From Thermoanaerobacter ethanolicus JW 200 (lineage in GTDB: Bacteria; Bacillota; Thermoanaerobacteria; Thermoanaerobacterales; Thermoanaerobacteraceae), in the NCBI RefSeq assembly GCF_003722315.1, contig NZ_CP033580.1, positions 557,001 to 621,000 of the forward strand: a DNA stretch of 64,000 nt. The letters run 5' to 3'. This document shows positions 1,691 through 35,031 of the stretch, piece by piece (position 1 is the stretch's first letter; every line of letters begins with the position of its first letter). The translations under genes and the position numbers were made by a program. Under the pieces are notes generated by a model. That model was not told where the DNA came from. It saw only the letters and a program-made list of their open reading frames with translations, and did not search any database.

Positions 1691-1710
1691 CAGACTGTTG
1701 ACAAAATATC

Positions 1711-1748
1711 GGGAACCCGTTATTATGAGAAGGGTTCCTTGTTTTTTT
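1711..1748 (+). terminator. Terminator inside the left end of the IS
   Basis: GGAACCC (1712-1718) pairs with GGGTTCC (1732-1738) and is followed by TTGTTTTTTT. It lies between the left terminal repeat and the transposase start. It probably stops transcription from the receiver gene from entering the transposase gene. Confidence 0.75.
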
Positions 1749-1777
1749 ATGAAGCAAAAGAGGAGAGGAGAAGAAAG

Positions 1778-3292
1778 ATGTTATCAAAGAAACAGGATGC
1801 CAGACATCAAATAGAATTTGTAAGCATAGATCAGTTAGTTCCAAAAGATCACCTTTTAAGGAAGATAGAAAGAGTTATAGATTTTAGTTTCATATATGAT
1901 TTAGTAAAAGACAAATATTCCGAAGATCACGGCAGACCAAGCATAGATCCAGTAGTATTAATAAAAATCCTGTTTATTCAGTATCTTTTTGGCATACCCT
2001 CAATAAGGAGGACAATATCAGAGATAAAAACAAATGTGGCATATAGGTGGTTTTTAGGGTATGGGCTAACAGAAGAAATACCTCATTTTTCAACATTTAG
2101 CCAGAACTACATAAGAAGATTCAAAGGGACAGACATATTTGAGAAAATATTTACGAAGATTTTAGAAGAAGCAATAAGGCATGGGCTAGTAAATGCGGAG
2201 GAAGTATTCATAGATTCAACCCATGTAAAAGCAAGTGCCAACAAGAAGAAATACACCAAAGAAATAGTAGAACAAGAAGCCAGGACTTATCAAGAAAAAC
2301 TAGAAGAAGAAATAAACAAAGATAGAGAAGCTCATGGCAAAAAGCCATTAAAGAAAATCAAGAAAATAAAGACGAAAGAAGTGAAAGTAAGCAAAACAGA
2401 CCCAGATAGCGGAATGTTAAACAAAAACGGAAAAGAAAAATGTTTTGCATATTCTTTTCATACAGCCTGCGATAAAAATGGATTTGTATTAGGAGTAAAA
2501 GTAACAGCTGCAAATGTCCACGACAGTGTAATGTTTCAAGAAGTATTAGAAGAAGTTGAAAAGAGAGTAGGAAAACCGAAAGCAATAGCAGTGGACGCAG
2601 GCTATAAAAATCCGTACATATTAAAGACAATATTTGATAAAGAAATAATACCAGCAGTGCCGTATACAAGACCAATGACAAAAGATGGTTTCATGAAAAA
2701 GCAGCAGTACGTATACGATGAATATTATGACTGTTACATATGCCCACAAAATGAAATATTAACATATGTTACAACCAATAGAGAAGGATATAGAGAGTAC
2801 AAATCAAATCCAGAAAAATGTAAAAATTGTCCTTTAAGAGAAAAGTGTACCCAAAGTAAAGACTACACAAAGAGGATATTCAGGCACATATGGGAAGGAT
2901 ATGTAGAAGAAGCAGAACACCTAAGGCATACACCTTATTGTAAGGAAGTATATGAAAGAAGGAAAGAGACAATAGAGAGAGTATTTGCTGATATGAAAGA
3001 GAAGCATGGTTTGCGATGGACAACATTAAGAGGAAAAGAAAAACTGTCCATGCAAGCGATGCTTGTTTTTGCTGCCATGAATTTAAAGAAAATGGCAACA
3101 TGGTTATGGAGGAGGGGCAAGAGCCCTTTGGGTACTTTGAATTTTTATCCATTATTTGGAGTTTTAAAGAAAATTTTATCCAGATACATACAGCCCCTGT
3201 TTTCGGAAATAGGAAAACAGGGGCTTAAATTTTGCTTTGTCAACAAACTGAAAGGTACGTTTGTACCTTTTTTTATAATTTCCTTGAGCTAA
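1778..3292 (+). CDS. IS1182-family DDE transposase
   Basis: A 504-residue transposase. The N-terminal DUF772-like region (QLVPKDHLLRKI to RWFLGYGL) is followed by the DDE catalytic domain: aspartates in FIDSTHVKA and AVDAGYKN, and the glutamate region in RRKETIERVFADMKEKHG. A lysine-rich insert and a Cys-rich patch (CYICPQNE, CKNCPLREKC) lie between them. The ATG at 1778 has the GAGGAGAGGAG ribosome-binding region just upstream, so I prefer it to the ATG at 1749 that the open frame also allows. The frame has no stop inside the element. It runs through the right terminal repeat at 3250, so its last 13 codons come from the hairpin duplication and host DNA. The gene is otherwise intact. Confidence 0.92.
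   Translation: MLSKKQDARHQIEFVSIDQLVPKDHLLRKIERVIDFSFIYDLVKDKYSEDHGRPSIDPVVLIKILFIQYLFGIPSIRRTISEIKTNVAYRWFLGYGLTEEIPHFSTFSQNYIRRFKGTDIFEKIFTKILEEAIRHGLVNAEEVFIDSTHVKASANKKKYTKEIVEQEARTYQEKLEEEINKDREAHGKKPLKKIKKIKTKEVKVSKTDPDSGMLNKNGKEKCFAYSFHTACDKNGFVLGVKVTAANVHDSVMFQEVLEEVEKRVGKPKAIAVDAGYKNPYILKTIFDKEIIPAVPYTRPMTKDGFMKKQQYVYDEYYDCYICPQNEILTYVTTNREGYREYKSNPEKCKNCPLREKCTQSKDYTKRIFRHIWEGYVEEAEHLRHTPYCKEVYERRKETIERVFADMKEKHGLRWTTLRGKEKLSMQAMLVFAAMNLKKMATWLWRRGKSPLGTLNFYPLFGVLKKILSRYIQPLFSEIGKQGLKFCFVNKLKGTFVPFFIISLS
3190..3227 (+). repeat. Long hairpin near the right end of the IS
   Basis: AGCCCCTGTTTTC and GAAAACAGGGGCT form a perfect 13-bp stem around an 8-base loop, followed by TAAATTTTG. 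It lies inside the last codons of the transposase. It may act as a terminator or mRNA end for the element. Confidence 0.6.
3251..3277 (+). terminator. Right copy of the duplicated terminator hairpin
   Basis: An AAAGGTAC/GTACCTTT stem followed by a run of T. This is the functional half of the terminator of the receiver gene, now separated from that gene by the IS. It would also end transcripts leaving the transposase gene. Confidence 0.8.
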
Positions 3293-19048: not shown

Positions 19049-19068
19049 AGGCGTCATATTGACGCATT
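19048..19068 (+). repeat. Left copy of duplicated murA terminator hairpin
   Basis: GCGTCA-TAT-TGACGC is a perfect 6-bp stem directly after murA. A related copy with its T-run lies at 19332-19358 after the MITE. The 21-base copies match at 17 positions, so this duplication is older than that around the IS at 1691. Confidence 0.75.
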
Positions 19069-19331
19069 CAGACTGTAGACAAACTTTCGAAAATAGGATA
19101 TTTTGCATAAGGAACGACTTGTGACAAAGCGGCAACAAAACTTAACAAGACCAAGGGTGGAGGCAGGGCCGAAGCCAAGGAAGGCGGAGGCGGGCACTAA
19201 GACAAGGATGTCGAATGTGCCCGGTACCCTGCCGGAACCCGAAGGTCGAGTTTAGTTTTGTCGCTTTGGAACATCGGAGTGACGATGCAAAATATCCTAT
19301 TTTAAAAATTTTTGACTTTGTCAACAAACTG
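19069..19331. mobile_element. MITE-1, non-autonomous relative of the IS1182-type element
   Basis: 263 bp with ends CAGACTGTAGACAAA and TTTGTCAACAAACTG, the same termini as the complete IS at 1691-3250. Subterminal arms AGGATATTTTGCAT and GATGCAAAATATCCT are complementary. The core is GC-rich, unlike its surroundings, and forms several conserved stems shared with MITE-2: GGCAGGG (19162-19168) with CCCTGCC (19227-19233), and GGCAC (19193-19197) with GTGCC (19217-19221). No credible protein is encoded. It could be moved in trans by the IS transposase. Confidence 0.85.
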
Positions 19332-19358
19332 GAAGCGTCATATTGGCGTCTTTTTTGT
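19332..19358 (+). terminator. Right copy of the murA terminator
   Basis: GCGTCA-TAT-TGGCGT (two G-U pairs) followed by CTTTTTTG. This keeps the T-run of the original terminator downstream of the MITE. Confidence 0.7.
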
Positions 19359-34699: not shown

Positions 34700-35031
34700 C
34701 AGACTGTAGACAAACTATTTTGTAAGATTGGCATTTTGTAAAGTAATGCGACTCGCGACAAAGCAGCCCGGCACTCAAGTAAGAAAGTTTATAAAGCAAA
34801 AATAGAAAAACAATCATACTTACTTGAGTGCCGGGAAACTTAGCAAGTGTGATGACGGAGGCGGGGCTGGAGCCACGGATGGCGGAAGCTGCCACCTGAG
34901 ACAGGGATGTCGAATGTGGTCGGAACCCCGCCGGAACCTGAAGGCCGAGCTTTAGTTTTGTCGCTTTGGAGCATCGGAGCGACGATGCAAAATATCTCCT
35001 TTGAATATTTTTTAACTTTGTCAACAAACTG
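34700..35031. mobile_element. MITE-2, related to MITE-1, with a nested insertion
   Basis: 332 bp with the same ends as MITE-1 and the IS (CAGACTGTAGACAAA and TTTGTCAACAAACTG), in the same orientation as MITE-1. The core shares long blocks with MITE-1, including GGATGTCGAATGTG and TTTAGTTTTGTCGCTTTGGA. Stems are kept with paired changes: GGCGGGG (34860-34866) with CCCCGCC (34926-34932), and GCCAC (34891-34895) with GTGGT (34916-34920). A 69-bp palindromic insertion sits at 34767-34835. It lies in the terminator of the surface operon. Confidence 0.85.
34767..34835. repeat. Nested 69-bp palindromic insertion inside MITE-2
   Basis: CCCGGCACTCAAGTAAG (34767-34783) and its exact complement CTTACTTGAGTGCCGGG (34819-34835) flank 35 AT-rich bases. 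MITE-1 lacks this block at the matching position. The 17-bp perfect arms suggest a tiny mobile element or a hairpin insertion of unknown type. Confidence 0.7.

Follow-up and report, generated by a model that had tools for sequence, protein, structure and literature searches.

We analysed a window of 64,000 nucleotides from the genome of Thermoanaerobacter ethanolicus JW 200, in which a palindromic miniature element (MITE-1) begins 20 bases past the stop codon of a murA-like gene. The coordinates given in an earlier note (19069-19331) are exact, and the element measures 263 bases, running from CAG to CTG. A BLAST search of the genome gave 49 stretches matching MITE-1, and a covariance model (R1), built without Rfam on sequences of the genus and of its sister genus alone, found about 35 copies of the core. 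The copies are multiple and dispersed and have no coding capacity, as expected of an IS1182-family MITE. MITE-2, also in the window, is the element's long form, in which an additional hairpin is inserted. As the earlier note had reported, the two have GC-rich cores in common. These are 82% identical over 196 bp, every stem pair that it quoted is present (GGCAGGG/CCCTGCC versus GGCGGGG/CCCCGCC, and GGCAC/GTGCC versus GCCAC/GTGGT), and a GACA-loop-TGTC hairpin is kept in both. The loop of the long-form insert occurs in both orientations among the copies (L020 and L021 versus L022-L024; window 34768-34835), which suggests that DNA lying between short arms has been inverted. The whole of MITE-1 is one long palindrome with a computed fold of -116.8 kcal/mol (z = -12.2 against dinucleotide shuffles). 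Near one MITE copy lies a group II intron D1-D4-3 segment (155.6 bits; L022, 1-173, minus strand). Annotated phage and plasmid collections held no match to the element.

Table 1. Features of the element, its putative partner and the host csrA gene. Positions are those of the window, except where a genome position (G000:C1) is given.
Feature	Position	Strand	Remarks
Autonomous IS1182-family insertion sequence, MITE-like ends	1691..3250	+	Between two copies of hairpin AAAGGTACGTTTGTACCTTT
IS1182 family transposase ORF	1778..3292	+	NCBIfam NF033551, 492 bits (cut-off 270); Pfam DUF772, DDE_Tnp_1_6
5' copy of duplicated target hairpin, GGCGTCATATTGACGCA	19050..19066	+	Terminator of upstream murA-like gene, separated from its T-tract
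MITE-1, full element	19069..19331	+	5' CAGACTGTAGACAAAC ... CTTTGTCAACAAACTG 3'; same inverted-repeat ends in about 30 full genomic copies
TwoAYGGAY-like RNA core, three-way junction of P1, P2 and P3	19159..19235	+	R1 match G000:C1:576159-576235, 103 bits
P1 5' strand, GGCAGGG	19162..19168	+	Pairs with 19227-19233, CCCTGCC; A-U to G-C and G-C to A-U compensation
P2 hairpin, GCC-AAGGAA-GGC	19174..19185	+	GGA in six-base loop; adjoins tandem G-A internal loop
P3 stem, GGGCAC/GTGCCC	19192..19222	+	Capped by second GGA hairpin
P3 apical hairpin, GAC-AAGGAT-GTC	19201..19212	+	ACAAGGAUGU is identical to the core of RUACARGGAUGU, the published SELEX consensus for CsrA
3' copy of target hairpin plus T-tract, GAAGCGTCATATTGGCGTCTTTTTT	19332..19356	+	
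MITE-2, long form of the MITE-1 element with extra hairpin insert	34700..35031	+	R1 match G000:C1:591857-591934
Hairpin insert of long-form MITE-2, about 67 bases	34768..34835	+	CCCGGCACTCAAGTAAG ... CTTACTTGAGTGCCGGG
csrA, host genome	G000:C1:1031217-1031363		

The window also contains a complete 1.56-kb insertion sequence (1691-3250) with an intact transposase ORF, and the genome encodes at least three IS1182-type transposases. The ends of the MITE are those of this IS1182-family element, as family membership would require; the insertion sequence has the same ends without the GGA-hairpin core. The pattern CAGACTGTWGACAAA, with one mismatch allowed, occurs 40 times in the genome, one occurrence being the start of the insertion sequence at window position 1691. 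Almost every intact MITE copy has a copy of one hairpin, about 15-28 bases long, on either side; the hairpin is often a terminator, with a T-tract on one side, and the insertions are at gene 3' ends. The murA terminator that MITE-1 interrupts is uninterrupted in a relative (G005; L280), where it reads AGAGGCGTCATATTGGCGTCTTTTTT, and the same terminator bears the MITE in two other genomes, in the same orientation in G007 and in the opposite orientation in G010 (L281, L282). The hairpin flanks and the uninterrupted site place insertion in inverted repeats, as expected of an IS1182-family MITE, and we therefore conclude that the whole target hairpin is duplicated on insertion. The window's IS1182-family transposase probably moves the MITE. 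Among genes near MITE copies there was no orientation bias (12 forward, 9 reverse), and orientation bias was rejected on these counts as a proof of RNA selection.

In the core of the element two hairpins each have GGA in a loop of six bases, the arrangement that would be expected of a CsrA-binding RNA. When folded, each of the genome's 33 copies places GGA in one hairpin loop or more, and 25 do so in two, as compared with 33% and 6% of shuffles. GGA is found in both loops of most copies, and some have a strict AUGGAU in both (L013); the loops of MITE-1 and MITE-2 read ANGGAN, those of MITE-1 being AAGGAA and AAGGAU. Tandem G-A pairs, a feature of TwoAYGGAY RNA, adjoin P2 (GAA/GGA) and, in many copies, P3 (GA..GA). 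On the genus tree the GGA triplets changed twice at six sites, versus 35 changes at the four adjoining loop sites. Some copies depart from this layout. In a subtype from G008, a genome of the same genus, the GGA hairpins are replaced by a GNRA-type hairpin, GCGAAAGC (L056, L066), and about seven copies keep the GGA hairpin but have ACCTGACGTAGG or a similar sequence in place of the 3' strand of the basal P3 stem (L022, L023, L024, L025, L036, L038, L069).

TwoAYGGAY RNA (RF01731) was reportedly described by Weinberg in 2010. The Rfam search that the earlier note had called for gave no match to the element at the gathering threshold, either in the window or in eight copies, and HEARO and other transposon RNAs found no Rfam support as its identity; the homology is visible only below the cut-off and with a purpose-built model. 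RF01731 matched the window over its full length at 19118-19275 with 32 bits, under the gathering cut-off of 43 bits, and it matched 20 copies in the same genome (best, 40.1 bits) and copies in the sister genus (best, 42.7 bits). Conversely, R1 gave 48 matches in 92 Rfam-flagged loci of other families (E 4e-10 to 3e-3), which, with the covariation described below, supports common ancestry and fold independently of the Rfam model. Thus, the full-length matches below the cut-off, the R1 matches, the covariation and the conservation of GGA identify the core as a TwoAYGGAY-like RNA.

The earlier note had read the paired base changes as a sign of selection on structure. Covariation held in larger alignments. 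Among 57 distinct cores of the genus, with double compensating changes counted on single branches, we found 10 such changes where 1.2 would be expected, and none of 500 randomisations gave more than 5. In an alignment of 22 sequences drawn from both genera, pairing holds in 99.6% of cells and seven pairs change on both sides, a number reached by one of 500 shuffles; half-changed pairs are nearly absent (2 one-sided versus 31 two-sided cells). Across other clostridial families (43 distinct sequences), pairing holds in 91.4% of cells, both sides vary in 21 of 22 pairs, and covariation is 0.551 versus 0.129 +/- 0.012 in shuffles and at most 0.069 with partners slid, in an alignment that was fitted to R1 and so somewhat favours pairing.

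The compensation is thus real, but it is equally common outside the core: 10 of 37 pairs in the outer, AT-rich arms of the palindrome show it, versus 5 of 24 core pairs. Because the outer arms lie outside the RNA core, compensation alone is no proof of selection on RNA, and palindrome-repair mutation or DNA folding could produce it there. We therefore take template switching as a serious rival explanation of the compensation itself. On this account the element is an ordinary IS1182-derived palindromic MITE in which switching between the imperfect arms repairs the palindrome and so makes paired changes by mutation, not selection. The near absence of half-changed pairs in the two-genus alignment agrees with it, as does the evidence that arms do exchange (the insert loop in both orientations, and a sister-genus element inverted in place); together, outer-arm compensation and arm exchange leave the earlier note's key argument weaker than it appears. 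As an account of the whole element we nevertheless consider it unlikely, since mutation leaves unexplained why GGA stays invariant in two loops whose other bases change freely, why one three-way junction recurs in many clostridial families although the element ends differ, and why the RNA is associated with csrA. The reciprocal homology with TwoAYGGAY, the invariant GGA loops and the cross-family covariation instead support, at the level of sequence comparison, a conserved structured RNA core.

TwoAYGGAY RNA occurs in 40 of 398 sampled genomes of the phylum, mostly in several copies each, and in each of the ten multi-copy genomes that we examined from outside the family the copies are dispersed, MITE-like repeats. 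In a genome from another family of the order (G036), about 20 of 32 RF01731 matches exceed the cut-off, and the elements have different ends (GRTTAYACTGTAARAAC ... TTGTACACTAAAATC) with direct repeats of about 8-9 bases, read by eye where readable (L070, L088, L116, L117). In nine further genomes, copies at unrelated sites are alike over about 110-420 bp, usually 170-310, with sharp ends; one of the genomes examined (G153) again has CAGACTGTAGACAAA ends and duplicated hairpins. In the sister genus there is one orthologous copy per genome, located between the genes for an S41 peptidase and a glycerate kinase (L050-L055). This element is 94-98% identical in most comparisons, versus 76-92% for flanking DNA; one close pair shows no excess conservation, and in one genome the copy has lost the second hairpin. 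Strong purifying selection would be the simple reading, although recent replacement may possibly account for the identity instead. In two of these genomes the element is inverted in place.

The earlier note had left open whether the conserved structure was RNA or a folded DNA used in transposition. On the latter reading, the core would act as single-stranded DNA, an extruded hairpin recognised by the transposase or a host factor. The palindromic form of the whole element (z = -12.2) agrees with this, and IS1182 relatives and the MITE both choose hairpin targets, which indicates that DNA hairpins matter to the IS1182 group. For the core we judge it improbable, because the autonomous insertion sequence has the same ends and no core, one MITE subtype has no GGA hairpins, and the same core is found in elements whose ends are quite different and whose direct repeats are short; nor does it predict strand-specific GGA loops or their co-occurrence with csrA. 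Folded DNA is a possible reading for the outer arms of the palindrome. For the core, then, it is the RNA half of the earlier proposal that the homology, the GGA loops and the covariation bear out.

CsrA binding was predicted for TwoAYGGAY by Gardner and Eldai (2015; PMC4333381). The P3 loop of the window copy, ACAAGGAUGU, fits the CsrA SELEX consensus RUACARGGAUGU (PMC7652899), and the P2 loop, AAGGAA, departs from it. Every one of the family's 20 genomes carries the csrA gene. In the 398-genome sample this gene was found in 39 of the 40 genomes with TwoAYGGAY versus 246 of the 358 without (p = 2e-5), and the association also appeared at the genus level (p = 5e-4), the one level at which the statistics do not ignore phylogenetic non-independence. 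The single TwoAYGGAY genome in which csrA was not found (G213) is a 94% complete draft, and other members of its family have the gene. As controls in the same sample, the IS1182 transposase showed no comparable link (OR 1.1, p = 0.78), and Spo0A showed no significant one (OR 3.2, p = 0.14). Co-occurrence with IS1182 was rejected as an explanation of the TwoAYGGAY distribution, there being no association (p = 1). Least probable among the alternatives is that the RNA is real and conserved but serves a different ligand, for example a ribosomal or other GGA-loop-binding protein, or stabilises mRNA 3' ends: the tandem G-A pairs and conserved junction do exceed a minimal CsrA site, the P2 loop is off consensus and the insertions are at gene 3' ends, but neither the csrA co-occurrence nor the SELEX-like P3 loop would be expected.

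We consider it on balance probable that the element is a mobile, IS1182-mobilised MITE carrying a TwoAYGGAY-like RNA that binds CsrA. The transposase would recognise the ends common to the insertion sequence and the MITE, and insertion into a terminator-like hairpin would duplicate that hairpin. For transcription, CsrA binding and the consequences for host or element, we infer the following. The upstream hairpin copy is parted from its T-tract, so read-through would be expected, and the transcript of the neighbouring gene would continue through the element until the downstream copy terminates it. In a transcript of the GGA strand, the three-way junction would present two GGA loops beside tandem G-A pairs, and the two loops would most likely bind one CsrA dimer. 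CsrA might then be sequestered, or anchored at the 3' end of host messages. Several observations count against this reading. Given the lack of orientation bias, only about half of the copies would yield GGA-sense RNA by read-through, and a search for an internal promoter in the element gave only weak matches. G008 has csrA, yet carries only the MITE subtype without GGA hairpins. The rearranged P3 stems of about seven copies and the compensation in the outer arms also weigh against it.

A broader reading, which we put forward only tentatively, is that TwoAYGGAY is a transposon-borne CsrA sponge that has spread among clostridial genomes on several unrelated MITE backbones, some with IS1182-like ends and hairpin targets and others with different ends and direct repeats of 8-9 bp. 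It would titrate or redirect CsrA, and one genus or more would have retained it as a host RNA in single copy. The known CsrA antagonist in Bacillus is a protein, FliW, and CsrA-titrating RNAs in Firmicutes have been an open prediction since 2015. If the RNA is both spread by transposons and bound by CsrA, mobile elements would scatter the binding sites of a global regulator over the 3' ends of genes, and CsrA activity would depend on how many copies there are; the Rfam label 'cis-regulatory' would be corrected, and the patchy, multi-copy distribution of TwoAYGGAY explained. The single parts (the MITE, IS1182, TwoAYGGAY and the CsrA prediction) were already known. Neither mobility of TwoAYGGAY nor the combination of MITE, IS1182, TwoAYGGAY and CsrA was found in the openly licensed literature searched, and searches on Thermoanaerobacter MITEs and on MITEs with CsrA gave nothing on this element.

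Among known systems, the core most resembles TwoAYGGAY itself, also of Clostridia, in its two GGA-loop hairpins, tandem G-A pairs, three-way junction and enclosing stem, with reciprocal covariance-model matches across the whole model. It differs in that the window copy (32 bits) and the best copy of its genome (40 bits) both score below 43, and the MITE-1 loops are not strictly AYGGAY; moreover, TwoAYGGAY is classed as cis-regulatory in Rfam, and in the sources consulted it is not described as mobile. The transposase in the window belongs to the IS1182 family, and, like IS1272, a studied member of that family, the elements described here insert into inverted repeats, for example terminator hairpins. 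However, IS1272 replaces or partly deletes its target hairpins and leaves no target duplication (PMC5678879, PMC4923244), whereas the MITE and insertion sequence described here duplicate the hairpin. QMITE1 and QMITE2 of Coxiella offer a parallel as MITE-borne structured transcripts, the RNA here being predicted from sequence, but the account of them in a review (PMC10969869) describes no conserved protein-binding motif and no RNA conservation across families. Finally, the Csr/Rsm small RNAs (CsrB, RsmY and others) likewise have GGA-bearing hairpin loops with a SELEX-like ACARGGAUGU; those small RNAs are encoded by host genes and known from Gammaproteobacteria, whereas here about 35 transposon-borne copies, with predicted CsrA binding, are dispersed in a clostridial genome.
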